Shown here: positions 11,788 to 55,184 of the stretch, piece after piece
How the letters are laid out: every line of letters starts with the position of its first letter
Position numbering within the stretch: position 1 is the first letter of the stretch
Source of the DNA: a virus
Reading direction: 5' to 3' (one strand)
DNA length: 64,000 nucleotides
Virus record (IMG/VR): IMGVR_UViG_3300001533_003623
Span: 20,016-84,015 of that record
Program-made: the position numbers and the translations under genes
Notes under the pieces: model-generated
Database searches by the model: none
What the model was told of the DNA's origin: nothing
What the model saw: only the letters and a program-made list of their open reading frames with translations

Positions 11788-12152
11788 ATACATTCGACCA
11801 ATTAGTGTGGCAACAGGTCCAGACTGTGCGACCTTCATCTATCGTACTTGACAAATTACACGCTCGCGCTATAATACAGGATAGGGTGGACGCGCTACGT
11901 TCCGATAAAATGGACGTTTTAGATACGCTCGTACAAATTGCGGCGGCTGCGCAAATATGTGCAGAGCAACTATTATTGCTAAGACAGCAAGAAGAAGCTC
12001 CAAAACAAAGCGACTTACAGCATGAGTTGGAATCTATTGTGCAGCATATATTGGACAACATAACAGTAGCACAGCCTAAACAGCGCGGTGTATCTAGGCA
12101 GGTGTGTGAAATAGATACAGAGTTTTTGGAAAAATTGAAGGATATTGTATGA
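11784..12152 (+). CDS. helical hypothetical protein
   Basis: A 122-residue protein predicted to be almost all alpha-helix, with a Gln/Leu-rich stretch (ICAEQLLLLRQQEE) suited to a coiled coil. It overlaps the gene before it (ATGA) and the polymerase gene after it (ATGA). A consensus promoter lies inside its coding sequence. Its place directly before the polymerase suggests a replication accessory role, but no family is recognised. Confidence 0.55.
   Translation: MNTFDQLVWQQVQTVRPSSIVLDKLHARAIIQDRVDALRSDKMDVLDTLVQIAAAAQICAEQLLLLRQQEEAPKQSDLQHELESIVQHILDNITVAQPKQRGVSRQVCEIDTEFLEKLKDIV
11848..11875 (+). promoter_or_regulatory. intragenic consensus promoter before the polymerase gene
   Basis: TTGACA (11848-11853), 16 bases, TATAAT (11870-11875): a perfect match in both boxes, inside the 11784 gene and pointing at the polymerase gene 270 bases on. 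It could boost polymerase transcription, or it could be a chance match inside coding sequence. Confidence 0.5.
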
Positions 12153-14122
12153 CGACATACTTTCCTCTGCATGTGCATTCTCATTACTCATTACTTGATG
12201 GATTAAGTAAACCATCACAAATAGCACGTAGATGTAAGGAACTAAATTTACCGGGCTCAGCTATTACTGACCATGGCAACATTTCTGGTGCTATTTCTTT
12301 TATGAAGGCTATGAAGGGACTTCAGCCAATTATTGGGTGTGAACTATACATAAGTCCAAACGATGCTACTATTAAAGATGGAGACCGTACTTTATACCAT
12401 CTTTGTGTTTTAGCAAAAAATATGGAAGGATGGCGCAGATTAGTACAAATCACAAGCGAATCCAATAAACCAGAGCACTTCTACTATAAACCGAGATTGG
12501 ATTTAGACCGATTAGCTAAATATGCAGATGGCAACTTAATTGCATTCAGCGGACACTTAGGCTCACATTTATCACACTGCATTTTTAAGGACATGGCGGT
12601 ACATGACTGTAAAACCGCCGAAGAAGCCAAAGCCCTTACGTACCCTGATTGGGTACAACGCACTACAGATGCGGCTATGCGTCTACGTGATATTTTTGGT
12701 AAAGATAATTTCTTTATAGAGATACAAGTTATTGATAGCAAGAATATGCCAGCGTGTGCCTTGCTTGCTACAGGTCTAAGGTATATCTCTAAAAAAACAG
12801 GCATTCCCTGCATAGCAACACCAGATGCGCATTATGCAAAACCAGAAGATGCGTACGACCAAAGAATATTGTTGTGTAATGCCATAAATACAAATTTCCA
12901 AACTATAGAAGAAAAGAAGGTAAGTGGTGAAAATATTGGAATGGGAGCGTTCTTTCGTTCACGCCAATATCATATACCATCTTACGAAACAATGATTCAG
13001 TATGGTAATACCGAAGAAGAACTTGCTAATACTATGGTCGTTGCTCAAATGTGTGAGTCTTATGACCTGACATCACCACCTAAACTACCTAAATTTCCAT
13101 GTCCCGATGGAATGACTTCGCGACAGTACCTAACGAAGTTATTACACCAAGGCTGGATAGACCGACAACCGCAAATTCAGAACACAATCAACAGAACACA
13201 TCATACTGAACAAGAATACAAAGACAGACTTAATGAAGAATATAAGATTCTAACAGATGTGGGTCTATCAGATTATTTTCTAATTGTTAATGATATTATC
13301 CAATGGGCACGTAGCCAAGGTCAGCTTACCGGCGCTGGTCGTGGTAGTGCTGCTGGTTCATTAATTCTATACATACTTGGCGTTACTCACGTGGACCCAA
13401 TTGAGTTTGACCTGTTGTTTTCAAGGTTTTATAACGCTGGTCGTAATACAGCCGAACGTATCTCTTTGCCGGATGTTGATATGGATTTTGAAATTCAACA
13501 ACGGTTTAAAATATTAGACTATATACGTCAAAGGTATGGGCGTGAACACGTTGCGCAAATGCTCACGTTTACCAGACTACAGGGGCGTGGTGCATTAAAA
13601 GATGTCATGCGTGCTCATTCTGCTATGTCATTTGAAGAAATGAATCGTGTGACAGCATTTATACCAGATGAAGCTGAAATCAGCGACCAATTACAAGCAG
13701 TTAAAGAGTTAGATAAGCAGGAAGGTGGGGATGGTGAAGCGTCTATTATACGCTGGGCATTAGAACATCACGCCGACGACCTTAAACAATGGGCGTATAT
13801 TGATGATGACGGCAACATACAAGGACCATACGCTAAGCTGTTTGAACAGGCTATTAGAATAGAAGGCACTAAAAAATCACAAAGCAAACACGCCGCTGGT
13901 ATTATTATCGCTCAAGATGTATTATCTGATATATGTCCAATGGTATATGACAAATCTTCTGGTGAGACAATATGTGGAATGGAAATGAATGACTTAGAAG
14001 ATATGGGCAATGTAAAGATAGATATATTGGGCGTAGCAATGTTGGATAAATGCCACGGAATACTCAATTTACTAAAATATGGAACTCTATGTAAGGAAAA
14101 TAATGAATCAACCAACAGTTGA
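12149..14122 (+). CDS. dnaE: DNA polymerase III alpha, N-terminal half (PHP + palm)
   Basis: The first of two genes for a DnaE/PolIII-alpha-type replicative polymerase (657 residues). The PHP domain starts with HVHSHYSLLDG, ITDHGN and GCELYI, with TPDAHY later. The palm has GRGSAAGS and the acidic motif PDVDMDF (~residue 441); the third catalytic Asp lies in KIDILG (~622). All three acids are therefore in this half. It stops at the point where ordinary DnaE continues into the fingers, and its last ~16 residues (YGTLCKENNESTNS) look like a drifted tail. The other half is at 16670. No split-intein sequence is seen at the break. Confidence 0.85.
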   Translation: MTTYFPLHVHSHYSLLDGLSKPSQIARRCKELNLPGSAITDHGNISGAISFMKAMKGLQPIIGCELYISPNDATIKDGDRTLYHLCVLAKNMEGWRRLVQITSESNKPEHFYYKPRLDLDRLAKYADGNLIAFSGHLGSHLSHCIFKDMAVHDCKTAEEAKALTYPDWVQRTTDAAMRLRDIFGKDNFFIEIQVIDSKNMPACALLATGLRYISKKTGIPCIATPDAHYAKPEDAYDQRILLCNAINTNFQTIEEKKVSGENIGMGAFFRSRQYHIPSYETMIQYGNTEEELANTMVVAQMCESYDLTSPPKLPKFPCPDGMTSRQYLTKLLHQGWIDRQPQIQNTINRTHHTEQEYKDRLNEEYKILTDVGLSDYFLIVNDIIQWARSQGQLTGAGRGSAAGSLILYILGVTHVDPIEFDLLFSRFYNAGRNTAERISLPDVDMDFEIQQRFKILDYIRQRYGREHVAQMLTFTRLQGRGALKDVMRAHSAMSFEEMNRVTAFIPDEAEISDQLQAVKELDKQEGGDGEASIIRWALEHHADDLKQWAYIDDDGNIQGPYAKLFEQAIRIEGTKKSQSKHAAGIIIAQDVLSDICPMVYDKSSGETICGMEMNDLEDMGNVKIDILGVAMLDKCHGILNLLKYGTLCKENNESTNS

Positions 14123-16669: not shown

Positions 16670-18775
16670 ATGAGTAAGTTAGTGTTTGGATGTGGTTGTG
16701 AATTTCCAATTGCGAACTGTGAACAAGACATATATGCTGACCATCATACTGGCCCACTCCCGTTAGGCATTGATGTGGATATTTACAATATTTCACACAC
16801 ATGTCCAAGAACGTGGGCGTTATTTTCCGAAGGTCACACAAAGGGGGTATTTCAGTTAGAGGGTAACTTAGGTAGAACGTGGGCACGTAAGATACAACCA
16901 GAAAACTTAGAAGAGTTGTCTGCATTAATTGCACTTATAAGACCAGGATGTCTCAAGGCATTATCCGGTAACCCACCTAAATCTATGACTCAAAGATTTA
17001 AGGACCGCAAACATAAACTAGAAGATATAGAATATATGCATCCTGCGCTTGAGTCAGTGCTTGATACAACGTACGGGGTTCTGGTATACCAAGAACAAAG
17101 TATGAAACTAGCCGTGACTCTTGCGGGTTTTGATTTGCAACAAGCAGATGTGCTTAGAAAAAGTATAGGCAAGAAAAAAGCTGACATCATGATTAAAGTT
17201 CGTGATGAATTTATAGGTGGTTGTACCACAACAGAAATTGTGACCAAAGAACAAGCAGAAGAGATATTCGGCTGGATACAAGAAAGCCAAAAATACAGTT
17301 TTAACAAGTGCTTATCACCAACAACCGTGGTAGAAACTATTGATGGCAAATACTACACATTAGAAGACGTAGATATTGGAACACAAATTACTTCACCAAA
17401 TGGTCCAACAACCATTATTAACAAATATGATAATGGAATACAGGATGTATTTGAAATTACTCTTGAGTCTGGTAAGACAATTCAATGTACTATGTCACAT
17501 GAGTTTTTATGTAAAGACGGTCTAAAACACACGCTATCCGAAATTTTGGAACACGAACTTAAGATTGTGTGTCAAGACCAAGCATTATCTCAAGCAGCAC
17601 AACGGCGCATCATTCATGGCCATACTGGATGTAGTCATTCAACTGAAAAAGTAATTTCAGTACGAAAAATTGGTAAAATGCGCACGGTAGATATTGAGGT
17701 TGACAATCCATCTCATGTGTTTTATGCCAATGGTGGTGTCGCAACTTCCAATTCACACGCCGTATCCTATGCAGAAGGGGGATACTGGACCGCCTATCTC
17801 AAGGCACACTTCCCTGCTCAATTCTATTGCTCATTTCTACACGGCGCACAATGGAAACAAGATACTAGTGAAGAAGTATATGAATTGGTGAATGATGCCA
17901 AACTGAATGATATAGTTGTACGAGTACCAGATTTTAGAGACCAGCAAACAGTACCATATCTCAACGGTACCGAGGTGTGTTTTGGTATTGGTGATATCAA
18001 AAATATTGGTAAGGCCGCTCTACAAAAACTTTACGTCGCTATAAACGACATTGATAAGCCCGTACGAGAGTGGTCGTGGATGGACTACATTGCACTATTC
18101 TCTAGTCGTGTATCAAGTACAGTCAATGAGGCATTGGTATGTTGTGGTGCTTTGGATTATTACGGCAAGCCTCGTACTACCATGATGTATGAGATAAACT
18201 TATGGAAAGAGTTGACCAATAAAGAAAAAGAGTGGATAGTAGAACACATGCCGTATGCAGACATGATAACGGCGCTGCGTGAATGTGCTCATACAAAGAA
18301 AGAAGGCGGTGGATGTCACTCAGTTAAAAGGGTGCAGGCAGTAGAAAACATTATTGCCATGATAGAAAAACCACCGCACTCTCTTTATGATACGGCAGAC
18401 TTTATAGCGTGGTGTGAAGATAAATATCTAGGTGCATCTCTAACATGTAGCCGTGTAGATGGCTGTATTAAAGCTGTTGAAGCTAATGTTACATGTAAAG
18501 ACGTTGTAAAAGGTTATACTGGATATACAGTTATAGCTGTTGAGGTTACTAGAATAAAACAAGTGAAGACTAAAAAGGGCAAAACACCAGGACAAAACAT
18601 GGCGTTTATGAGTGTAGCGGATAGCTCATGCTCATTAGATGATGTAGTAGTGTTTCCAGATAAGTGGCGTGAATACAAAGACATACTATATGAGGGTAAT
18701 ACAGTTTTGATGCAAGGAGAACCATCACATAAAAAGGGTGGCGGTTTTACTGCGAAAAAGTTTTGGCAGATTTGA
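16670..18775 (+). CDS. dnaE: DNA polymerase III alpha, C-terminal half, with mini-intein
   Basis: A 701-residue precursor (553 after splicing) that completes the DnaE polymerase. The conserved GVFQLEG starts the fingers, followed by ALIALIRPGC, YGVLVYQEQSM and DVLRKSIGKKK. The intein interrupts KYSFNK|SHAVSYAEGGYWTAY, a known hot spot. Helix-hairpin-helix-like GIGDIKNIG and a C-terminal OB-like region follow. The first ~55 residues (MSKLVFGCGCEFP...) have extra cysteines and no DnaE match. It must pair with the 12149 product, which holds the catalytic acids. No direct promoter is seen; two candidates lie upstream. Confidence 0.85.
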   Translation: MSKLVFGCGCEFPIANCEQDIYADHHTGPLPLGIDVDIYNISHTCPRTWALFSEGHTKGVFQLEGNLGRTWARKIQPENLEELSALIALIRPGCLKALSGNPPKSMTQRFKDRKHKLEDIEYMHPALESVLDTTYGVLVYQEQSMKLAVTLAGFDLQQADVLRKSIGKKKADIMIKVRDEFIGGCTTTEIVTKEQAEEIFGWIQESQKYSFNKCLSPTTVVETIDGKYYTLEDVDIGTQITSPNGPTTIINKYDNGIQDVFEITLESGKTIQCTMSHEFLCKDGLKHTLSEILEHELKIVCQDQALSQAAQRRIIHGHTGCSHSTEKVISVRKIGKMRTVDIEVDNPSHVFYANGGVATSNSHAVSYAEGGYWTAYLKAHFPAQFYCSFLHGAQWKQDTSEEVYELVNDAKLNDIVVRVPDFRDQQTVPYLNGTEVCFGIGDIKNIGKAALQKLYVAINDIDKPVREWSWMDYIALFSSRVSSTVNEALVCCGALDYYGKPRTTMMYEINLWKELTNKEKEWIVEHMPYADMITALRECAHTKKEGGGCHSVKRVQAVENIIAMIEKPPHSLYDTADFIAWCEDKYLGASLTCSRVDGCIKAVEANVTCKDVVKGYTGYTVIAVEVTRIKQVKTKKGKTPGQNMAFMSVADSSCSLDDVVVFPDKWREYKDILYEGNTVLMQGEPSHKKGGGFTAKKFWQI
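17309..17752 (+). mobile_element. mini-intein in DnaE C-terminal half
   Basis: A 148-residue intein without endonuclease. It begins with Cys (CLSPTTVVETIDGKYYTLED), has block B CTMSHEF with TxxH, block F RTVDIEVDNPSHVFYANG with Asp, and ends VATSN before a +1 Ser. Features are those of class 1, except that the usual penultimate His is Ser. Excision restores FNKSHAVSYA. With no homing domain, it is either degenerate or maintained only by splicing. Confidence 0.85.
17809..17817 (-). repeat. dispersed motif GCAGGGAAG (exact)
   Basis: Exact copy in the second polymerase half. The encoded residues (HFPAQ) are conserved in DnaE, but other codons could have been used. Confidence 0.65.
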
Positions 18776-27627: not shown

Positions 27628-28113
27628 ATGACAATTCCAGTGAACTTTTTAGTTAATCATGTCGGCGCTAGTCAAATGATGTTCTACTTGATTGAGCAAG
27701 CCAACGAAATAAATAAGCAGGGAAGCCTGCATGCCTCTCTCTTTTATTCCGACCTACATAGACCATGTCGCCAGCTAGAACTACCAACGTTTTTAATGAT
27801 AGAGGCTTGGGCGCAGCCTGGGGTGTCTATTTCAACCTCTATCCCAACCACCCTTTCCCTGCTTAGATTTCCTGGTCCTAACGTACGTATGTTTTATGTT
27901 TGGGATATGTCTTGGATGGATAATCCAAAAAGATATGGAGTGATGACATCATTATTTAGACATCCGTCATTACATATAATAGCGCGTTGTAATCACCACG
28001 CACAAATCATAAGCAATAACTTCAACATAGAAGTTAAGCATATCGTAGAGAATTTTCAACATCAAAACCTATCAGAGGTAATACATCATGAGTATTCATT
28101 ACTTAAAAAATAG
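27628..28113 (+). CDS. short glycosyltransferase-like protein
   Basis: A 161-residue protein that looks like the first half of a GT-B enzyme (VNFLVNHVGASQMMFYLIEQ, then FPGPNVRMFYVWD and IARCNHHAQIISNNF, where an acceptor-domain linker is expected). The donor domain is absent. It ends inside the start of the homing nuclease gene (26-base overlap). It may be a natural small protein or a remnant cut short when the nuclease arrived. Confidence 0.5.
   Translation: MTIPVNFLVNHVGASQMMFYLIEQANEINKQGSLHASLFYSDLHRPCRQLELPTFLMIEAWAQPGVSISTSIPTTLSLLRFPGPNVRMFYVWDMSWMDNPKRYGVMTSLFRHPSLHIIARCNHHAQIISNNFNIEVKHIVENFQHQNLSEVIHHEYSLLKK
27717..27725 (+). repeat. dispersed motif GCAGGGAAG (exact)
   Basis: Exact copy in the 27628 gene; a one-mismatch copy on the other strand lies at 27854-27862. 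Confidence 0.7.
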
Positions 28114-28873
28114 AGATTGGCTATTGGAGCAATACAGTGAAAAAAATCGTTCAATGCAAGATATTGCTAATGAGCTAAATACCAACAGACAACGTATACG
28201 CAGAGCATTAATCAGATTAGGCATTCCTCCGCGAGATAAATCAGAAGCACAAAAAGCAGCCCTAGAGGCAGGGCGCTCACAACATCCAACATTAGGACAA
28301 GCGAGGTCAGACACAGTTAAGCAACGTATTGCTGAAAGCGTAGAAAAAAGCTGGGCCGAAGCATCCGAAGCAACCTTGTTGGCCCGCTCCCAAAAGGCAA
28401 AAGAACAATGGGAACGTATGACTCCACAGGCCAAATCTAATTTGTTAAAGAAGGCACAGGACGCCGTGCGTGTCGCTTCTCGCGAGGGCTCGAAATTAGA
28501 GCGTTATATGCGTGACGAATTGACAAAAGCCGGTTATGAGTTAAGATACCACGTAATGGATGTGATTCCAAATCAAAAACTGGAAGTAGACTTGCTAATC
28601 CCATCACTGTCGGTTGCGATAGAAATTGATGGACCGTCGCATTTTCTTCCTATCTGGGGCGATGACAATTTACAGCGTAATATAAGGTCAGACCTAGAAA
28701 AAAACGGATTGTTGCTGGGACACGGATTTGTTGTCATTCGTATCAAGCAAATGAATAATCACGTATCTAAGCTAAAGCAACGCAAAATATTGGCGCAAAC
28801 CATCAAAGCGCTGGAAAGTGTACAAACAGAATTTCCAAAAAAGAATGACAGATTAATTGAAATTGAGGTATAA
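28088..28873 (+). CDS. free-standing homing-type nuclease (HTH + Vsr-like)
   Basis: A 261-residue protein with three parts. First is a helix-turn-helix (SMQDIANELNTNRQRIRRAL). Next are basic helical repeats with NUMOD-like character. Last is a nuclease core: LEVDLLIPSLSVAIEIDGPSH, then NGLLLGHGFVVIRIK. The core fits the Vsr-like EDxHD group used by some phage homing nucleases. It lies at the end of the glycan block with an overlap at each side. Target unknown; the truncated gene before it is a candidate. Confidence 0.7.
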   Translation: MSIHYLKNRDWLLEQYSEKNRSMQDIANELNTNRQRIRRALIRLGIPPRDKSEAQKAALEAGRSQHPTLGQARSDTVKQRIAESVEKSWAEASEATLLARSQKAKEQWERMTPQAKSNLLKKAQDAVRVASREGSKLERYMRDELTKAGYELRYHVMDVIPNQKLEVDLLIPSLSVAIEIDGPSHFLPIWGDDNLQRNIRSDLEKNGLLLGHGFVVIRIKQMNNHVSKLKQRKILAQTIKALESVQTEFPKKNDRLIEIEV

Positions 28874-29775: not shown

Positions 29776-30153
29776 ATGAAAGTACAGATTAGAATATCAC
29801 CCAAGGTATTTATTGAAGGACAGGGAGACACACACACATCCGTTTTTGAAGAACTAGCTGCTTTGCAGGAAGTGTTCGGTGAATTTCACAAATGCAGGAA
29901 ATGTGGTTGTGAAGAACTAAGACTGATAGTTAGAACTGATAAGGACGACAATAAGTATTATGAAATTCATTGTCAAAATCGTAGCTGTAGAGCAAAGCTT
30001 AGCTATGGTCAGCAAAAGAAGGGCGGTGGACTGTATCCTAGACGCAAAGAAACGGACAAGCAAAGCGTTATGGGAGGGGTTTTAGAATCTGGTGCTTATC
30101 TGCCTGACGGTGGTTGGGTTAGATGGAATAAAGAAAAGAAAGCAACCGAATAA
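29776..30153 (+). CDS. zinc-finger protein, last plus-strand gene
   Basis: A 125-residue protein with a four-Cys zinc site (CRKCGC and CQNRSC) followed by AKLSYGQQKKGGGLYPRR, a pattern found in small phage proteins encoded beside annealing proteins. It may assist single-strand DNA work, inferred from its neighbour. It ends the rightward block; the next gene runs the other way, six bases on. Confidence 0.6.
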   Translation: MKVQIRISPKVFIEGQGDTHTSVFEELAALQEVFGEFHKCRKCGCEELRLIVRTDKDDNKYYEIHCQNRSCRAKLSYGQQKKGGGLYPRRKETDKQSVMGGVLESGAYLPDGGWVRWNKEKKATE

Positions 30154-30159
30154 TATCTG

Positions 30160-31758
30160 TCAAACGTTGTACACAAATCGTTTTTTACCACAATCCCAAA
30201 TACGCGCATACCCATGCTGTAAACACCATTCTTTTTCAGTGATGTTACTAGGGCACCCAGTCTTAGACTTCATCATAGATTGCTTACTAATCCTTTGACG
30301 GGGTTGGCTAATCTTTACATAAGAATAGTCAGCCCCTATTTCTTTATCTAAAACAAATCCCATTTTGTGATACACAGTTCCAGATGACCATCTGTTATCA
30401 GACCACGTAGTAATTTTATGAATGCTGTTTTGCTTACACCATTGTATGGCATACTTCAATAGTTTGGACGCGCCACCAAGCACAGACACACCACGAACAA
30501 ACGCTAATCTATCCAATACTATATCTTCAGTCATCCTATGATGATTATTGAGAGACAGCACACCACATAATTCATCCTGGTAGTATAATCCAAAATATAC
30601 AAGAGCAGCTCTACGACATCCTTGTATATGGAATTGCTGTATAAAATTTTTACCAATACTTGAATCAATTATATCTACGTAGCACTTTCTACCATAAACA
30701 GACTTATTTTTGTGTAGGACTGCGTCTAAGTAACCTTGTACCTGCGGCTGACGTAATAACCACTCGTCTGAAAAAATAGTTATCAAGCGGATATCTTGTT
30801 CTAGACATTGTTTATATTTATCATAATGATAGTTTCTTAATCTTGGTTCTAGCGAAAGTTCATGATGCCAATGTAGTCCGCAGTATTCAATACCTAATCG
30901 TAAATCGTCATCATAGAAGTCTATTTCTTTACCATTTAGGATGGTTCGATTAGGTTGAAAAGAGTCTCCTAAAAATACGCCTAGACTATCCTGTTCAACA
31001 AAAGAAGACATATGATATGATTCAGCACCATACCTTTCCATACACGTTTGAATAGCTTTGTTTTTAATAGCTTGGTCTTGTAGTGTACATGAAACACCAT
31101 ATTTCTTTAAGCACGTTTCACGTATTCTGTTTTGTACTTTAGGTGATTTTGCAGCATATTCAAAACCATATCGTTGCAAATTTGTGTCCCTAATCTTTTG
31201 TTTAACTTCTTCTGATTGAGATGGGTGACTAGTGCCATATTTATTAATAGACGTAGCCTTTACTCTGGCTTTATGTTCGTCGGATTGTGTGTAAGACTCT
31301 ACTCCATACTTTTTCAAACAAGTCGCTCTACGTTTAGCAATGTTTTGGTTTATCTTAGGGCGTTGACCCCAATAACAGTTAGCAGGAGAACAGGGGGCGG
31401 TATTATCTCGTCTACGTAACACCAAGCCCTTACTCCATCCGTTTTGAATAGACCAATCATAAAAAGCTTGATAATCACTAGACCATTCTTTGGAAGCTAT
31501 CCTACGAGTCTTCATGGATTTCCAACTATTATAGACTGGGTGTTTAATTGGCGCAGTATACTTATCATTATACCTATGCATTCTTTGACTAGCGGCTTTG
31601 CGATTATAACACCCACAACTTTTAGTTCTGCCAGAAGTTACACTAGTTGTTCTTATGCTTTTGACAGTACCACAATCACATTTGCATGACACCTTACCAT
31701 TACATGGTAATTCTAATACAGTTAGGTAGTTAAACTTTTGTCCGATATGAATTTTCAT
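30160..31758 (-). CDS. composite homing endonuclease (Zn/AP2-like + repeats + Vsr-like)
   Basis: A 532-residue protein in four parts. Part 1 is an N-terminal Cys cluster (CKCDCG, SCGC) as in AP2/HNH-type intron nucleases. Part 2 is an HNH-like segment (HPVYNSWKSM to CSPANCYWGQ). Part 3 is a set of ~35-residue repeats with CLKKYGV or variants, a NUMOD-type DNA-binding array. Part 4 is a Vsr-like core (EIDFYDDD, LGIEYCG, WHHE) followed by a GNAT-like domain (VSVLGGASKLL). ATG 31758 follows GGAGG; an upstream start at 31794 would read through the promoter. It lies alone between the two strand blocks and has its own control hairpin. Confidence 0.8.
   Translation of the reverse strand: MKIHIGQKFNYLTVLELPCNGKVSCKCDCGTVKSIRTTSVTSGRTKSCGCYNRKAASQRMHRYNDKYTAPIKHPVYNSWKSMKTRRIASKEWSSDYQAFYDWSIQNGWSKGLVLRRRDNTAPCSPANCYWGQRPKINQNIAKRRATCLKKYGVESYTQSDEHKARVKATSINKYGTSHPSQSEEVKQKIRDTNLQRYGFEYAAKSPKVQNRIRETCLKKYGVSCTLQDQAIKNKAIQTCMERYGAESYHMSSFVEQDSLGVFLGDSFQPNRTILNGKEIDFYDDDLRLGIEYCGLHWHHELSLEPRLRNYHYDKYKQCLEQDIRLITIFSDEWLLRQPQVQGYLDAVLHKNKSVYGRKCYVDIIDSSIGKNFIQQFHIQGCRRAALVYFGLYYQDELCGVLSLNNHHRMTEDIVLDRLAFVRGVSVLGGASKLLKYAIQWCKQNSIHKITTWSDNRWSSGTVYHKMGFVLDKEIGADYSYVKISQPRQRISKQSMMKSKTGCPSNITEKEWCLQHGYARIWDCGKKRFVYNV
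30162..30186 (+). terminator. weak rho-independent terminator for the plus-strand block
   Basis: AAACGTTG (30162-30169), loop TACA, then CAA, a two-base bulge and CGTTT, ending in six T (30181-30186). The stem is AT-rich but the T-run is clear. It lies just past the last plus-strand stop, within the 3' end of the converging gene. Confidence 0.45.
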
Positions 31759-31810
31759 AAAAAAAACCTCCTCATGTGATATATTATACACCACATGGGA
31801 GGTTTGTCAA
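31759..31810 (-). promoter_or_regulatory. promoter nested in a ribosome-site-hiding hairpin
   Basis: On the minus strand TTGACA (31810-31805), 16 bases and TATAAT (31788-31783) precede GGAGG (31771-31767). AACCTCC (31804-31798) pairs with GGAGGTT (31771-31765), and CATGTG (31797-31792) pairs with CACATG (31778-31773), with a single A bulge. The loop holds the -10 box. Read-through RNA would hide the ribosome site; RNA begun near 31776 lacks the left arm and leaves it free. Confidence 0.75.
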
Positions 31811-31836
31811 TGTCTTCATCTGACTTAACTTATAAA

Positions 31837-32475
31837 TCAAAGATATTCAAGAGCAAAATACAAGCCAAACTGAGTTTTGGAACCTATGGAGTCGGGTCGA
31901 GCAGACAAACACACATACCAATCGTGTCTGTCGTCTTGTCTAGTAGAGCTGCCACCGTTCCCTGCATACAATCCAGATTCTCCTGGTGACTGTGCTAAAC
32001 TCAAGGTAACGCCAGACCCTGCTGGAGTTGTCCAAGAAGTTTCACCGGAGCCTAAAAGCCCAGATTGTACAGCGGATGGATGCAAGGTTTCGTATGCCTT
32101 GGTAGTAACGCCAGACGCACCAACATCAGTGCTAACGCGGTCGTAAATACGCATTTCTACGTTTTGAACTTGCACAGCAGAACTGTGAGTAAAACGAGGA
32201 TTTAAAGTGGCATTACCATTAGGAATATCTCGTAGGTATAGGTTGGTTGCACCAGAGAGTTCACCACTATTAGCGTGTGTCCATTTCACATTATTAGATT
32301 GTGGGCCTTGTACGGCACCAGCACCGTCAGTAATATAAGTGTTCTCTTGGTAGGCACCAACCGCAACAGATGCACCAAATCCACCAGAGCCAAAAAAACC
32401 AAGCCCTGAACCTGCCATGTCAACACTAAAAGCACCGCCTAAACCATTGGCGGCATAAAATTTGATTTCTGCCAT
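31837..32475 (-). CDS. virion structural protein candidate
   Basis: A 212-residue Gly/Ser-rich protein (MAEIKFYAANGLGG) with a beta-rich pattern. CAGGAG lies upstream of the ATG. Segments such as ITDGAGAVQGPQSNNV and FTHSSAVQVQNVEMRIYDR look like those of tail or head decoration proteins. It is the last virion gene in the leftward block, before the homing nuclease. Role inferred from position. Confidence 0.6.
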   Translation of the reverse strand: MAEIKFYAANGLGGAFSVDMAGSGLGFFGSGGFGASVAVGAYQENTYITDGAGAVQGPQSNNVKWTHANSGELSGATNLYLRDIPNGNATLNPRFTHSSAVQVQNVEMRIYDRVSTDVGASGVTTKAYETLHPSAVQSGLLGSGETSWTTPAGSGVTLSLAQSPGESGLYAGNGGSSTRQDDRHDWYVCLSARPDSIGSKTQFGLYFALEYL

Positions 32476-43094: not shown

Positions 43095-46000
43095 CTATGC
43101 TATACCAAAACCAGTATCTCTAATTCTGTCACGTAAACGGTCAATCTCAGGACCAACAACTCCCATAACCATTTCACTAAATGCATCACCGCTTTGTGTC
43201 AAGGTTTCGCCACCTTCTACCACAACAGTCACAGGTTGGTGAGTATGTGTTACTGAAATACGCACTTCTTGAGCCAACGCGTCACGAATTTCTATGGCAG
43301 CACCACGCATTCTATCAGCAGCAACAGCAAATTCTGCCACAACCGTTGCAAGTTGAGTTGCACTTTGACCAAAGGAGGTTGCAGCGCTATTGAAATCACT
43401 CATTGCACCACTTAATGCGTTGGCAGACTCTATCATACCAGTGTTTGCAGTTCCGAAAGCGGCACTGATGTTTTCTGGCAAAGCTTCCGAACTAGCACTA
43501 AACTCTGACATGGTTTGTTGTAATGCGCCAACATTAGTAGCAAAATCAGATGAAAACTTGCTCAACATACTATTGACATCGGCAGTGTTCAGACTAAATT
43601 CAGTAGGCATACCACTAGTAGCAGTTTCCCATCGTGATATTGCATCATCTAAGGATGAAGTTAGGGCGTTTAAGTCAGCATCTAGTTTGATTTCTGTTGG
43701 GATAGTACTGATTGAATCTTCAAGTCTAGTAACCACACCATCAAAATTATCAGGAAAGGCTTCTAGTCGTTGTGCAGCATCGCTGAAGTCGTTTACGGTC
43801 TTCGTAAACTCTTGAGTAAAGTTCTTCATCGCGCTCTGAGCATCATCTGCCAGTAATAATGAGTATGAGCCACCCGCGCTTGTAGTATTGCTTTGGGCTA
43901 CTCCACCGTCTTGATATCCTTGTACAACGCCACCTTTAGCAAGAGCTTGTACAACTGACCGAGACAATACAAATTCACCACCTTGCAGTACTGCTGGTTG
44001 GTTACCAGAACCAGAAACAAGGCCACCGGAATGGAACGTTTTTGCGTCTTTAGGAAGAAGTTCTTCAGAACGCATAATTTTAAAAAGTTGCTCTTGTAAT
44101 GGCTTTAGGCTTGACGTATGACTACTAAAAATATTAGCCAGAATTTCTTTGGGTCTTAGTGAATGAGCTGTTGGCTTACCATCACCACCGCTCATACTCT
44201 TACTGTAAGCATCAAGAACAGCAGGATTATTCAAAAAACTTTGTATAGCTTGATTGTCAGATACATGCATTGCGTTGTCTATTCCATGACCAAGTTCATG
44301 GCCAACAAAACGTCGCATTCCATTTTCAAATTGTTTTCTTGTTATTTGCCCATTCACCCATTGTTGATGTTTTTTATGTAAGAAATCACCAAGTCCAATT
44401 TGTTTCTTAGCGTCCATCCATACAGCAGCAACTTTTTTTAAGTCATAGGCTTCCTGCGTACGTTTTAACTCTTCCGGCGGAATATTACCAACAGTCACGC
44501 CAAACACAAAGTCTTGCATATTTAAAGATTCGCCAATATGTTGTAGCTGAGCATTTGCTACATCAAATATGGAGTCTGGTGTATTCAATTTCTGTCCAAG
44601 GTTTTCTTTTTTGGTAACCCAAGGTACATGCTCAAACATCTTATTTGGTTGGTATGCCTTACGTTTACGTTGCTCTTCTTTTAATAATTCTTGTGAACGA
44701 ATCCAGTCATCAATATCGTTGATTTCTGTTTTCAACTTAGGATTACCATATTGTTTATACAATTCATCGTATGTTGGTAGACTATTAGGGTCGGCAACCT
44801 TTTGAGTATATGTATGCTTATATTTAGCATAACCCTCTCTACTACTATGGAAAGCACTACGCTTATTTCTATCATATGCATCCTGTAAAGCCGCTCTTCT
44901 GTTTAGTGCTTCTCGTACCACATCCTCTGAATAAATTTTTGGTTGTCCCATGGTGGCACGACCCTCTTCCATAACGCGTTGCACTTCATCATATGTTTGC
45001 GGACGACGCTCAGATACCATACGCCCCATTTCTTCTGCAAAATGAGCTTGTGCTGTATCTGAAATGTTGATTGGCTGAGTACTACGAGCGGTATTACCAA
45101 TGAGCGTCTCACCACCAATACTTCCCGGCGGTAAGATTTCTCTTGAAGAAGGAATAGGAAGTGGGCCAACAGGACTTAGTTGAGGACTCATATCTCCCTG
45201 ATTACGTTGCGGCATGCGAGTATCTTTACGTAAATCTTGTATACGTCCACGCATCACCGGAGCATGAATATCTGCTTCTCTATTCAGTTCGAATACATTA
45301 TGGGCATTACGTCTTATTCGTTCGGCGTATTTACTATTTAATGATAAATCATGCGCTTCTTTAGATAGCGTAGGCGATGTATGAGTACCAATATTGGTCG
45401 CAAGATTATGATGTAATTCTCTAGGTTGGCTACCTAACAATTCACGCTGTCTACGATTCAACTTTCCTTGAGTATGCGCAATCACAGCTTGTTGGTCATA
45501 TTCTTTACTCTTACGTTGCTCTTCTTTTAATAATTCTTGTTGATATTCTGCTTCTAATAAATCTCTAATAGTCTTTTGTGAAACTTCATGTCCTTGAGAT
45601 TTTAATTTATTAGATATAATACCTTGTGCCATATTCATAAAAGAAGCACTGGTGCCAACGCCAAGCTGGGCAGGTATATCTTTCCATACTTCAGTATCAT
45701 CGAAAAAATCTGGTTCATAACGTAAAATTAAATCACGCAAACCAGTAGCAGACTGTCTATTTTGTCTAGGTATATAATGTCCAAAATCCTGCACCATATT
45801 ATGCATATCAGTTTTTAATGCAATATTACGTTGCAACTGCTCCCAAGCTTTCGCTGCTTCTTCTGGAGTTGCATCTCTACTGATAACACCATTTTCTGCT
45901 AAGATATTCATTCGTTGCATTGTGCGCGTACGATTATCATACTCTGCTCTAAGTCTTTGGTCTGTACTACGACCAGCTAACATCTCTGCGTTTTGAGCCT

Positions 46001-49000
46001 CTCGTCTACGCATTTGATGCGCTTGTAAATCAGCCATAGACTCAAATTTTGGCGTATGTGTCTCAACCGGAGGTCTATCGAACCCTAGAGGTTGTCTAGT
46101 ACGCGCTGGCGGCTTAGCATTAGCATCATACGCACCAGTACCACGTGTTGTTGGTGTAGTAGCAGTAACCGGCTTCTTCGAGCCATAAAGTAAGGCTTCT
46201 CTTTGAGCATCAAAAGACTTTATGCGTGAACGCATAGCGTCAAATCTAGATTGAGCTTGTGCTACAGAATCACCACCAACAATGCGCATAAGATTATCTT
46301 TGCGCTTTGCTTCTAACGTTGCTGCGTTATATTGTCTGCGGTGCTCCAAGTTTCTAGTGTAGTCTTGTTCAAAATCTTGTTCTAATTCCGCTCGTTGTGT
46401 GTGAATTGTCTCCATGCGAGCTTGTGATTCTGCACGAAGTTGATGCAAAGGTTTTTGTGGTGTATAGCCACGGGAACGAAAACGCGCATCGGTACCGGGT
46501 GGATAACGAGGCGTACTGATTTGAATGTTTGGTTGTTCTGCTATTGGAGGCTGAGCAGGGAAGGCTTCAGGGGTGATAGTAGAAAATGCTGTTGGTGTAG
46601 TAGGCAACGCAGCTTTACCAGAACCCTGTTCATAAGGTTTACCATTTACATATATCTCACCAGGAGTACGACCACTTGGTATGTCGTTCAATGGAGTTGG
46701 TTTTCTGGTACGTAAACGTTGTCTAATGCGCTCTCTCTCAGCAAGTTCTTCATCTCGTTTATTAGCCCAATAGGCTTCCTTGCTTATTGGCTTTGATTGT
46801 GTAGAATCATTTGTAATAGCTCTATCAGCATATTCTCTACGTTGATTTTCGTCTGGAAATGCTATTGCCATCGCACGAGCGCGAGCACGGTCTCTTTGGG
46901 CTTGTTCTTCTTCTCTCTTCTTAGTCCAATACGCTCTTCTATCTACTACGCCACCTTGAGCAGCATACATCGGCGTATCACCACTATTTATAGCCCGTAA
47001 AAGCTCCATGTTCTTTTGCGCCGCGCTTCTCTTAACAACAAACTCACCAGGAGTAAGCATAGCTGGAACTGTATCTGTACCACGACTTCTAAAAATAGGA
47101 CCGCCAGTGGCATGAGCTTCAGCTTCGCCGCCTACAGCACCGAGTTTTGTAAGCTCAATGTTAATTTCCTCAAGTCTAGTTGTGAAATTAGCCAAGTTGC
47201 TATTTAGTCTCTCAAGTTTGACATTATCCAATTCTTTTAGTGAAGAAGATAGTCCTAAAATATCTTTGCTATTGTTTATCAAAAGCTCTCGAAAAACACC
47301 AAAATTATTTTTATCATCACCAATAGTACCGCTTTGCATCGCTGCTATGTCTGTGTTGGCAGCTTTTCGTAAAGCATCACTAATCATTGCAGAAATTTCT
47401 TGGAACGCTTCTCTTGGTGCGATATCTAGGCGCTCTCTTAGGTCTTTGGCATATTGGTTATCGAATACATATGCCCCTTTGTCGTCTTTTTGGTAAATAT
47501 CGTCCTGACCATGTCTCTCAGCTCTATATTTTTCGTCTTGAATAGCTTTATAATCATCTCCATATTTTTGTAGTTTTTCAGCTATAGCTAAACGAAGATT
47601 TTTGATAACATCATCGCTAAGTAATCCTTCTTTATCCATTTTACCAAGAAAATCTTGGTTAGTATCACCCATTTTAGTCTTCAACACAGTAGCAAAATCC
47701 ATTTCGGGCGATTCCTTGGCGCGTTGCCATGCCTCATATGCAGTACTCATAAATCGCTTAGGATTAATTCCAGTAGCTATAATGTCTTCTGGTGTAGCAC
47801 CCTCACGAGTAATACTATAGCGGCTTTGTAGCTGGTCAAATGATACAGCACGACTATATCTATTTTTCGCATTATCAATAACGTCACTCTTTTTTGATAC
47901 AATCAATGCTATGTCCATTGCTGCTTTATCACTAATATTTAGACCAACACTGTCAGCCATTTCTCGTATGGAAGCAACAGACTCTTTTTGTTTATTGATA
48001 TCGCCAATACGAGACTTCAACACAAACTGCTCTCGTTTAAGAGTATCTACCTCGGCTTTCGCAAAACTATCAACTAATACTTTAGTGAAGTTTGTAAATT
48101 CACTACCCATTAGAGTAATAAATCTAGTATGCTCATCTTTCATTAAAGCCAAATTAGCTAATTCAGCCTGATGTTTTTCGGCATGCAGTCTCTTTAGATT
48201 GTCAAGCAAAGGCTTTTGTTCATCTGTAATAGTGCCTGGGGCTATTTCGGCGGCTCTTTCACCAAGAGTGGCACCAAGAAATGGCCGCAGCATAGCTGGC
48301 ATATTAACGCCATTACTAAACTTTAACGCTTCGTTTGTATTGAATATATTACCAGTCAATCCTTGACCTTGCTCGTCTACACCAAACATAAGCGCACGGA
48401 TATTGCGAAAATCACCCATAGATAAAGACCCAAGTGCTTGGCGACGTTCATCTGGTAATTTTTGGATATCTATGCCTCCATATGACACCGCAAGCGCATC
48501 ATAGATACTTGTCAGTATCTTTTGTTGACCTTCGTCACTCTCAAACATATATCGTTCCAAAAGGCCAAACTGACCTTTCTTTTCTTCTTCCAGTCTGTTC
48601 AGAGTTTGGCGAATTTGTGTTGCTTCATCTGTGGTGTTGGCTAATACGCCTAGCGCCATTTGCAATTTTTGTGCTTCTGTATTCAGAGCACCAAGCTGTG
48701 TTGTAGTCTCAAATGATGCTTTACGATTGGAGTCGTCTACGACTTTCATAGTCTGTCGTTTTTGGCTAAGTTCATTAATTTCTTCATTGACTCTAGATAA
48801 TGCACCACCTATAAGTTCTACGTCAAACGGGTCTGCGCCCGCTACTCGTGTCCCTTGCAGAACATCGGATATTTGGTTGCCTCGTGCTGCACGTACGCGA
48901 CCTGCTCCAAATTCATCTGTTGGCCATTGCTTCGTCAGTTCAAATATCTCTTGTCTGTTGCTAAGCTCTTGTCTAGCTAAATCTAATTGTTTGCGAGTCA

Positions 49001-52000
49001 TATCGGTTTCTAAACTGATGCGTGTCTTCACAGCCTTATCTAAGGCTTGCATCGCGTCTGTTTGACTATTAGCAATACCATCCCACTGCTTAAAGATTGG
49101 CTCAAACTCTTTTAAGCCCAATTCACGCAATACACCTGCTTCGTCGGTGCGCATTTGATTAATAAGTTTACCAACCCCAGCTTCAGAACCTTGCTTACCT
49201 ATCATATCTGTAATGCCGCCCATGATAGTATGCATTACCATTTCTTGAGCGCGCGTAATTTGCATTTTACCTGTGTCGTCTTTTGTTCCTAAAAGATTCT
49301 CAAATTCATCTTGAAATTGTCCAGACAATTGTTCTGGTGATAACGCAGTAGCACCACCAGCAACGACATTTCTAATCACTTGAGGAAGTTTATCTATAGT
49401 TCTAGCAATATCAAGTGTACTATTTAACATGTAGTTATCTGATGTAGAGCCAAAACCGCCACCAACTTGTCTCAAAGCGTCTTCGAATTGTTTAATATCA
49501 AACACGCCACCTTCTGTTATGCTCGCAAAGTTGCCGAACCCAGGCATACCCTTAAATTCTGGCATCACCACATCTCCGCGAGCCAAACCGGCAATACCAT
49601 CTAAAGCGTCACCAGCACGCTGTAGTCTCTGTACGGTTTCAGTCATAGCCGCATTAAACTGATTCAAAGTAGTTATCAAGGAGACAGCGCGCTCTCTCGC
49701 GCGTGTTTCTTTTTCCATAGACGCTCTAGCTTTGTTTCGTTCAGTAATTTCCTTTTGGATTTCCTGACGTATAGCGTATGTGCTGCTAGTTTTTTGTGAA
49801 GCCATATATGTAATGATTTGAGCACCTGCGGAAGTACGATTCTCAAAGTCGTCCAAGCTAGCCGCACTACTTATTAGCTCATCTTTGACAACTTGAACTT
49901 GCGGTGCCATACCACGTAATTCACGAGTAATAGACAATGCTGCATCAGTGTCTTTATCCGCTTCTGCTTGAAACTGTGCTGCGCGTAATGATTCAAGTGA
50001 TTTGCCTAATGTTAGCAATTCTTTAGAACCACGCGCGTCTACATTACCAGCAGCCAGACGGTCTAATGCGTTTCTAATATCATCTGACGATTCTTGAACA
50101 CGGGATTCACGATTGATTTTGCGAAGCTCTTTGATTTCGGCTTCCATACTACCAAACATACCATATAAACCACCTAGAGCACCACCGATACCAGCACCAA
50201 CAGCAGCACCAACAGCATTACCAATTACTGGGAATATAGAACCAACAATAAAACCAATACCGCCACCAGCAGCAGCCCCCCAACCAGCGCTAGACAAACC
50301 TCGCCCTGTTCTACGCTTATCTATGGCGTCTTGCATCTGCGCACTTGTGCGAGCATCTTTAGCCATCTCATGAGACTCTTTGCGCGACTGTTCGCCAAGA
50401 TAAATAAGAATACCCGATAATGCAGCTATGGCTGATGCAGTACCTAAAGCAGCAAGATTCAATCCGGTTAAATTCTTAGATAATGCATCAACATGACCAT
50501 ATCTAGTCAGAGACTTGACACCCATACCCATAGGGGTCGCTACTTGACGAAATGCGTGTGGTGAACCCATAACACTCTTTGGGCTAAACATACCTCGTAA
50601 GTGTGTAGACGCAACGCCTGCTTGTGCACCTGTTTTAGCAAAATTAGATAATTGACTAGTCAATCCCTGTACAACACCAAGAGACATTCGCATAGCATTG
50701 AAAGTGATAATCATCGTTGTGGCGCTTTGAATCCATTTTTGAGCAGCACTATCAGCATCTACCATTGTACTAGCAAAATTACCCAACATCATCGTCATAA
50801 ACATTGCTTGTTGTGCAGCTTGTCCAGCGTTGCCACTTGAAGCAACCTCCTGACCAGCGTTCACTGGTATTGGTGAACGGGCATATTGTGTGTTTGGAGT
50901 AGCAGCAGACATTCTACCCCAATGAGCAGCAGAACCGCTCTGAACTGCATATTTATCAGCAATCGGTTTAGCAACACTATACGGCAATCCATGGGCAGCA
51001 ATAGGCGGCATATTAGGTGGCATGCGTAATCCATCAGGACGCACTATGTCGCCTTGAGCATATTTATTAATGCGACGAAGATTTTCAACACCAAAAGCAT
51101 CTACAGCGCTCTTTTGTATTACAAATTCACCGGATTCTAGTAACGCGGGAACAGTATCTCCACTACCAACACCAGGAACAACACCGCCTCTAGCATATCC
51201 TTGTATTTTACCACGCCCCTCCATAATCTTTGCTATACGAACCTGTTCAGCTTTGGCTTGGGGTGCTACATTCTCACCGCCGAAAATATCTTTAGATAAA
51301 AAGTCACGACGAAGTCTACGCAAATCAGGGGAACTTCCAGCCATCATTCTAGCGAAATATTCAGAATCTGGTTGGTCCGATAAAAACCGACCAGCTTGCA
51401 AACTCATGCTTTTATATATAGACTTTTTAATAAAATCCACTTTGTCGGCTGTACTAGGTAATGCGTCATAAAAACTGCGCGAACCAATACCAGCTATTAA
51501 TTCATTAGGATTAGAAGCGAATGTTTGTATTAAATCATTGTCAGATTTTCCTTGAATGTACGGCAACATCATACGACGAGCTAAATGTTTGGTCAAAGCA
51601 TCAAACAAACGTTGTTTATTTTTCGTAATCCATAGATGCCACATATCCCCGCTTCGGTCAGAAGCATATCCAAGATTACCTCCAGCTTGTGCATCTGCTC
51701 GATGCGATAATTCGTGAAATACCGTGTCTTTTAATTTAGCATTATTTTTTATTAATTGCAAGTTAAGTGCAATCTCACCGCGAGGCTGATTAAATCCGCG
51801 TCTTGATGTCATGAGTCTGCGCATATCGTGCACATTAGTATTTCTAAAATAACCATATGCGCTGGCTTCATCCATATAATCATCTTTGTCAAACTCACGA
51901 ATATGAGGTAATCTATCCATCTCCTGTTTAAGCCCAAATTTTTTCTTATATTGCTTGGCATACTTATACGCAAGACGAATACGTGGGTCTGGTACCATAC

Positions 52001-54293: not shown

Positions 54294-54310
54294 GTCATAC
54301 CTCATATATA

Positions 54311-54368
54311 AAGAAAAAAGCCATATTGTCAGTATCGAGATTCACACTCGCCTTACCGACAACATGGC
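54311..54368 (-). terminator. rho-independent terminator before the tape measure gene
   Basis: Minus-strand GCCATGTTGTCGGTA (54368-54354) pairs with TACTGACAATATGGC (54334-54320), 15 pairs with two G-U, around a loop with a small CGAG/CTCG stem, then TTTTTTC. It would limit transcription of the tape measure relative to genes upstream. Confidence 0.8.
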
Positions 54369-54386: not shown

Positions 54387-55184
54387 TCACTCTGGGTCAG
54401 GTAAAGGTTGGCCGTCATCATCTAAGAACGGCTGCGACTCTACTTGATAATTACCGATTTCATCGACTGGATTACCGTTGACATCTACAAGATTACCTTG
54501 CTCATCTACATAATGACCTTTATCATTAATGAGACGACCTTCTGTATCAACTAAGTGTCCATCTTTGTTTACTAAGCGTAGTTCTTCATCAACAAAACGC
54601 CACTTAGAAAGAAACTTGTTCTCTGGTAAAGATGCTTCATGATTTTTATCAAGAGCATACATCATCTGAGCCAAAGTTTGAGCACCAGTAAATGCCTCTT
54701 CAGTATCTGCGTTAGTAAGATAGTCATCCACATCGCTGTATACGGGTTTACCCGTATCATTATACACCAAACACGAAGCTACAAGAGCATTAAATCTAGC
54801 GTTCTCAGCTTGACCTTCGACAGTATTTACGTCAAGCTCATTACGTTGGGCAATAAGATTACGTAATTGAAAACGCACTTTACGAATATCGAGAGCTAGA
54901 CGGCGCGCCTCAGACAACTTAATACCACCACGCTGTAGGTTTAACTCATGTTCATTGAGGTTGTTTAGCAGTTCTCTTTGCTGCTTTTCTTTCTCATCAT
55001 TCCATAAACCTTGGTCACGCATATAGTCTCCAAGACGTTGACGCAACAAACCGCCTGCCTTTAGAGCCTCAGCAAAAGTCGCATTGTAAACACGCTGAGC
55101 TGCACGTTGGTCCTTCGGCATTGGCTTTAGTACAGCATATTCTGTGTCATTGACCTTAAAAACTTCCTTCTTCTTTTCACTCAT
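54387..55184 (-). CDS. tail assembly chaperone candidate with octapeptide repeats
   Basis: A 265-residue acidic protein. The first ~190 residues are helical (LNEHELNLQRGGIKLSEARR). The end is a run of about five near-octapeptides with the pattern G(H/N)(L/Y)VD (DGHLVDTEG, KGHYVDEQG, GNLVDVNG). It lies directly before the tape measure and overlaps the gene before it by four bases (ATGA), the place of the GT/G chaperone pair in other phages. AGGAG precedes the ATG. Confidence 0.6.
   Translation of the reverse strand: MSEKKKEVFKVNDTEYAVLKPMPKDQRAAQRVYNATFAEALKAGGLLRQRLGDYMRDQGLWNDEKEKQQRELLNNLNEHELNLQRGGIKLSEARRLALDIRKVRFQLRNLIAQRNELDVNTVEGQAENARFNALVASCLVYNDTGKPVYSDVDDYLTNADTEEAFTGAQTLAQMMYALDKNHEASLPENKFLSKWRFVDEELRLVNKDGHLVDTEGRLINDKGHYVDEQGNLVDVNGNPVDEIGNYQVESQPFLDDDGQPLPDPE

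Follow-up and report, generated by a model that had tools for sequence, protein, structure and literature searches.

The window, the whole stretch of 64,000 nucleotides analysed here, comprises positions 20016-84015 of the 84,015-base virus record IMGVR_UViG_3300001533_003623, which represents an uncultured phage. A virion operon on the minus strand, which includes the tape measure gene (43095-54305), converges with a plus-strand operon, and a homing endonuclease gene lies between the two. The features of this junction are as follows.

29776-30153, plus strand: convergent gene of the plus-strand operon (125 aa), kept at the junction in relatives
30160-31758, minus strand: free-standing homing endonuclease gene (532 aa), with its ATG at 31758-31756
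31810-31756, minus strand: candidate composite element, a palindromic stretch 55 bases long at the front of the endonuclease gene
31805-31810, minus strand: -35 element TTGACA, part of a 12/12 promoter match
31783-31788, minus strand: -10 element TATAAT, located at the hairpin tip, part of the same 12/12 match
31764-31805, minus strand: hairpin with 5′ arm 31805-31787, loop 31786-31784, 3′ arm 31783-31764 and a bulged A at 31772
31775-31778, minus strand: transcription start predicted from the spacing to the -10 element, giving an RNA without the 5′ arm
31767-31772, minus strand: Shine-Dalgarno (SD) sequence AGGAGG in the 3′ arm, with GGAGG paired to CCTCC
31759-31766, minus strand: run of eight T's, both the U tract of a terminator and the spacer from the SD to the ATG
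31837-32475, minus strand: last gene of the virion operon (212 aa), kept at the junction in relatives

Read 5′ to 3′ on the minus strand from 31810, the endonuclease leader is TTGACA AACCTCCCATGTGGTG TATAAT ATATCACATG AGGAGG TTTTTTTT ATG. An Rfam search returned only tRNAs.

The 532-aa frame of the endonuclease is intact and encodes a Zn-binding N-terminus, DUF7487 repeats, an I-Bth0305I/Hef-like nuclease core and a GNAT/Mom-like C-terminus. The protein matches the homing endonuclease family PHROG 3339 (E = 9e-84). In the PDB, the sole match of its family profile is 3r3p (“mobile intron protein”, E = 1e-3), which we take to be I-Bth0305I. Conserved residues are D280, E291, H311 and D331 (EDxHD-type family). 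By these sequence matches, the enzyme is of the free-standing I-Bth0305I/Hef-like (EDxHD) type and falls, like F-LimX, into the Hef-like group, so the initial annotation was right that its family differs from the GIY-YIG family of I-TevI. Residues 359-530 match Pfam Mom (4.6e-07) and GNAT acetyltransferase domains; among five family members scanned, only the window's endonuclease passes for this C-terminus.

On the transcribed minus strand, folding yields a hairpin of 19 pairs with one bulge and a 3-nt loop, at -25.0 kcal/mol. Shuffled sequences have a mean of -9.6 kcal/mol (z = -5.27), and none of 200 was as stable. The full pairing of GGAGG with CCTCC was correctly seen in the initial annotation, but the 13-pair stem given there corresponds to the plus-strand fold (13-14 pairs, -19.5 kcal/mol), which we set aside because the gene is transcribed from the minus strand.

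The GC-rich stem is followed by eight U's and lies about 30 nt past the stop codon of the last virion-operon gene. These U's, which had been overlooked, make the hairpin a canonical intrinsic terminator. It is the best in the record by the d'Aubenton-Carafa score (d = 36.5); one other site in the record reaches d ≥ 15, and none does in 40 shuffles.

A promoter lies across the same hairpin, and the TTGACA-N16-TATAAT arrangement overlapping the stem is as previously described. Its hexamers match the sigma70 consensus at 12/12 positions. The spacer of 16 is one short of the optimum, which we count against our preferred explanation. Five 12/12 promoters with spacers of 16-18 occur in the full record of 84 kb (the window plus L019) versus 0.11 expected, an enrichment of about 45-fold, and dinucleotide shuffles (n = 300) contain two at most. 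The class is thus truly enriched in this genome, in agreement with the view of the promoter as host-type. The nested promoter is the only such site on the minus strand. The four on the plus strand lie in gaps or just ahead of genes, and one of them is upstream of a tRNA cluster.

In RNA that carries the full hairpin, opening the SD of the endonuclease gene costs about 13.1-13.4 kcal/mol, which ranks first among the 61 genes with an SD (the second has 6.1 kcal/mol, and the median is 1.6 kcal/mol). With RNA 5′ ends at 31778-31775, the cost falls to 1.5-2.1 kcal/mol. Thus, as was originally proposed, a nested transcript lacking the left arm of the hairpin would have an accessible SD, given folding and the predicted start site. 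An RNA starting at A31775 would begin with AUG and encode the peptide MRRFFL (31775-31755, minus strand), whose UGA stop codon overlaps the AUG of the endonuclease. This could be a leaderless coupling peptide, or it could be due to chance.

About 60 related IMG/VR contigs have the 212-aa and 125-aa genes in the same convergent arrangement. L020 is the nearest relative; both of its flanking genes are 62-63% identical to those of the window, and its junction has no endonuclease. This empty site is a 70-bp gap containing a hairpin (GCCCCGGCGCTCTTTGGAGTACCGGGGC) with a T-rich tail, which scores d = 21.4 as a terminator. Short endonuclease-free gaps of about 30-150 nt are found in L020, L014, L015, L018 and others, and all 30 distinct junctions of up to 150 bp without the endonuclease have a hairpin of -9 kcal/mol or lower. 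Judging from sequence, a junction hairpin without an endonuclease is most simply a terminator of the convergent operons. Given these hairpins and the terminator in L020, the hairpin of the window stands at the place of the virion-operon terminator. At the level of sequence comparison, the empty sites in relatives show that the endonuclease gene is an insertion directly behind the hairpin.

The U tract at the junction is on the virion strand in some relatives and on the other strand, or on both, in many, so the direction of the ancestral terminator is uncertain. The window and L020 do not share a stem sequence; the homology of the hairpins is therefore only positional, and the term “ancestral terminator” refers to position and type. 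Conservation of the pairing in relatives had been set beforehand as a test of the initial annotation; the outcome is mixed, in that the position of the hairpin is conserved, but the nested promoter and the SD are not.

No full-length homolog of the endonuclease was found in L020 or in five other records searched whole, although these records may be incomplete. The six relatives have at most short matches to the N-terminal Zn domain. None of the relatives was found to carry this endonuclease at the junction. The absence from the nearest relative, together with the different parts involved, fits the earlier suggestion of convergence with T4. In L005 (5713-6030) and L006 (5717-6034), a different nuclease-like ORF of 105 aa occurs right behind the junction terminator, and no promoter was seen within their junction hairpin. 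Given this different ORF, the convergent junction may be a hot spot for insertions.

The minus-strand element at 31810-31756 is likely, in our view, a composite device at the operon boundary, made up of a terminator, a nested promoter and an SD lock. The position, structure and U tract of the hairpin are directly apparent, and the hairpin would end transcription of the virion operon. The endonuclease gene was inserted immediately behind it, and the host-type promoter across the hairpin, if active from its predicted start site, would initiate the gene's own RNA inside the stem. Such an RNA cannot form the stem, so it would escape termination and have a free SD. Leaked virion transcripts, by contrast, would carry the whole hairpin with a closed SD and, by analogy to T4, would be translated poorly. 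The endonuclease would then be expressed from its own promoter by the host polymerase, uncoupled from virion transcription at two levels. Judging by promoter class, it is probably expressed from the start of infection, like the early-type genes of the plus strand.

This reading limits the silencing of read-through transcripts that was initially proposed. The SD is indeed hidden in the fold, but the effect would act only on leakage, since most virion transcripts should end at the hairpin given its U tract, its terminator score and the hairpins at the same place in relatives. A selfish gene right behind a highly expressed operon would in this way keep its own timetable, with the operon's stop signal serving as a start signal and a translational lock.

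Similar elements precede other phage genes. One scan used the pattern CCTCC..TATAAT..GGAGGT without demanding a -35 element, and most of the strongest hairpins with trailing T's that it recovered carry TTGAC(T/C) at a spacer of 17. A tighter pattern, TTGACTTNNNCCTCC..TATAAT..GGAGG, matched 47 loci (32 distinct), half of them with a U tract. Opening the SD costs 11-19 kcal/mol in the read-through RNA of all of these and nearly always about 5 kcal/mol or less in the nested RNA. The eight bases per arm beyond CCTCC and GGAGG, which are themselves fixed by the pattern, fit their own partner better than the partners of other elements (0 of 5000 permutations, 26 distinct arm pairs). The 32 distinct elements of this promoter/SD-hairpin family include L199, L201, L226, L234, L242 and L307-L347. 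Those examined occur in T4-like phages, with a recA/uvsX gene on one side and genes encoding dCMP deaminase, UvdE, a 5′-3′ exonuclease or a DnaB-like helicase on the other.

A third pattern, TTGACA..CCTCC..TATAAT, demanded no SD and matched 82 distinct sites, 61 of them with a spacer of 17. The SD is hidden by at least 8 kcal/mol in 14 of the 35 sites with an SD versus 4 of 89 control promoters that lack CCTCC (p = 3e-6), a difference that is partly built in because CCTCC is the complement of the SD. Viral (16) and bacterial (20) stretches share the exact geometry of the window; many of these are weak, and the strongest U tract among them is that of the window. A looser scan, which accepted any promoter within any fold, gave too many weak matches and was dropped.

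Based on these scans, we tentatively raise the possibility, for which we would put the chances at somewhat below even, that phages possess a self-insulating module, a terminator/SD hairpin overlain by a host-type promoter, from which RNA is both made and translated only when it starts within the hairpin. Unrelated phages would have this module repeatedly at the boundaries between operons, before the endonuclease here and, in T4-like marine phages, next to uvsX before dCMP deaminase, UvdE and other genes. Mobile endonucleases would acquire it by exploiting existing terminators. If this recurrence is true, a compact module of terminator, promoter and ribosome site would be a general means for phages to separate operons without spending DNA, and annotation that seeks promoters and terminators separately would miss it.

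We also analyzed homologous endonucleases, drawing on 79 loci with homologs, the window and four annotated phage homologs, and obtained scores for 34 leaders. The SD is deeply buried in the leaders of the window, of F-LimX (13.1 kcal/mol) and of L115 (11.4 kcal/mol). The high opening cost in L114 was discarded as evidence, as it reflects a spurious SD and a TTG start beside a plain terminator.

A near-consensus promoter ends 3-35 nt before the start codon in 11 of 20 close homologs versus 40 of 183 controls (p = 0.0025). Terminators within 130 nt upstream are found for 6 of 20 close homologs, 12 of 54 distant ones and 12 of 183 controls, which are genes of the same loci (p = 0.004 for close homologs versus controls). 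Both p-values are rough, given that start codons were picked by rule and the homologs are related. An overlap between promoter and terminator is seen in 5 of 74 homologs (L117, L123, L124, L176 and L181) versus 1 of 895 control genes, and this single match is again the endonuclease of L117, which had slipped in among the controls. The trend in these sequences is that this endonuclease group would tend to land behind terminators, bringing or gaining its own promoter. Among the cases with a terminator and a promoter, the window alone has the SD inside the stem as well. In L117 (before position 860) and L123 (before position 2000), the -35 element is in the 3′ arm of the terminator and the ATG is 6 nt past the -10 element, an arrangement that suggests a leaderless mRNA.

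It could be argued that the element of the window is only a terminator with a promoter, and that SD occlusion is a by-product of a stem containing GGAGG, with no selected role. Terminators at the junction in relatives have no SD role at all, and the SD is open or absent in most homologous endonucleases, several of which start 6-8 nt past the -10 element and have no SD to hide. However, opening the endonuclease SD costs far more than opening any other SD in the genome, strong SDs are also buried in F-LimX of Dickeya phage XF4 and in L115, the combination recurs with covarying arms before unrelated genes, and there are precedents in T4 (PMC2988022). We therefore regard the by-product explanation as unlikely, although it is the best of the alternatives to a composite device.

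An SD that is closed in read-through RNA and open in RNA from a promoter within the stem is described for T4 I-TevI, I-TevII and I-TevIII, for segB and for Aeh1 mobE in PMC2988022 (section 12) and PMC3014915. According to these sources, experiments have established SD hiding for T4 e, and it is also reported for the endonuclease genes. Their combination of an SD-hiding hairpin with a nested promoter is the same as in the window. However, the T4 and Aeh1 genes have late or middle promoters and encode GIY-YIG or HNH nucleases, whereas the window has sigma70 hexamers of host type and an I-Bth0305I/Hef-like nuclease. Moreover, its stem is also a strong terminator, and its gene follows a virion operon. 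T4 e, soc and 49 apply the same folding logic to non-mobile genes, as do the recurrences in marine phages, but have late promoters, and no terminator role for them was found in PMC3014915. I-TevI, which the initial annotation cited, is thus a valid precedent, but not the sole one, as mobE, segB, I-TevII, I-TevIII, e, soc and 49 share the logic (PMC2988022 and PMC3014915).

These parallels raise the question of whether the element is simply a translational switch of the I-TevI type, whose hairpin evolved as a silencer of read-through messages, with termination playing a negligible part. Folding and promoter placement fit this logic. The tract of eight U's, the highest terminator score in the record and the hairpins at the same junction in relatives without the endonuclease do not, and they equally speak against the original reading of the hairpin as primarily a device to control the endonuclease. 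Such a switch is thus improbable, clearly more so than the by-product explanation. The least probable reading is that the promoter is a chance match, with a gene that is essentially silent or depends on rare leakage: T4 segD is an endonuclease gene boxed in by terminators (PMC2988022), but the enrichment of 12/12 promoters, the correct spacing to the SD and ATG and the intact frame all argue against it.

The composite device may have a further counterpart in transposable elements. Sequence and folding reveal an anatomy of the Tn10/IS200 type in the window, with a putative terminator, SD occlusion and an inner promoter predicted to escape both. In IS10/Tn10, IS50 and IS200, termination or attenuation and SD occlusion of incoming transcripts shield the transposase. 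The two-level shielding of a mobile element's enzyme would be alike, but those are transposase genes in bacterial genomes, whereas the window has a phage endonuclease at the terminator position of a neighbouring operon. By analogy, our best model is that the window element would combine I-TevI/mobE logic with Tn10/IS200-type protection. The element is ordinary part by part and unusual as a combination; it is of the I-TevI/mobE kind, but as a variant in which the hairpin is a terminator and occupies the place of an old one. A terminator near the end of Tn916 insulates that element from outside transcription, but, unlike in the window, no nested promoter or SD occlusion is described in the abstract of PMC11658703.

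F-LimX of Dickeya phages (PMC3296691) is homologous to the endonuclease of the window (27.8% identity over 88%), and is likewise Hef-like and free-standing. As in the window, a hairpin hides its SD (13.1 kcal/mol). We recognized no nested sigma70 or T4-late promoter in the F-LimX hairpin by eye, and no U tract. A literature search, mostly outside subscription journals, found no description of a host-type promoter across a terminator/SD hairpin before a phage endonuclease.

We now note other features of the window. The record's only other strong terminator-like hairpin (54320-54368, minus strand, d = 29.4) separates gene 54387-55184 from the tape measure gene. Given this location, it may attenuate transcription past the tail gene that precedes it. 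A 261-aa protein (28088-28873, plus strand) has weak matches to homing endonuclease families. Since it occurs at the same place in nearly all relatives examined, with about 40% identity, it may be a domesticated nuclease. DNA polymerase III alpha is seemingly split into two genes (12149-14122 and 16670-18775, plus strand), which match successive parts of one PHROG model and have several ORFs between them.
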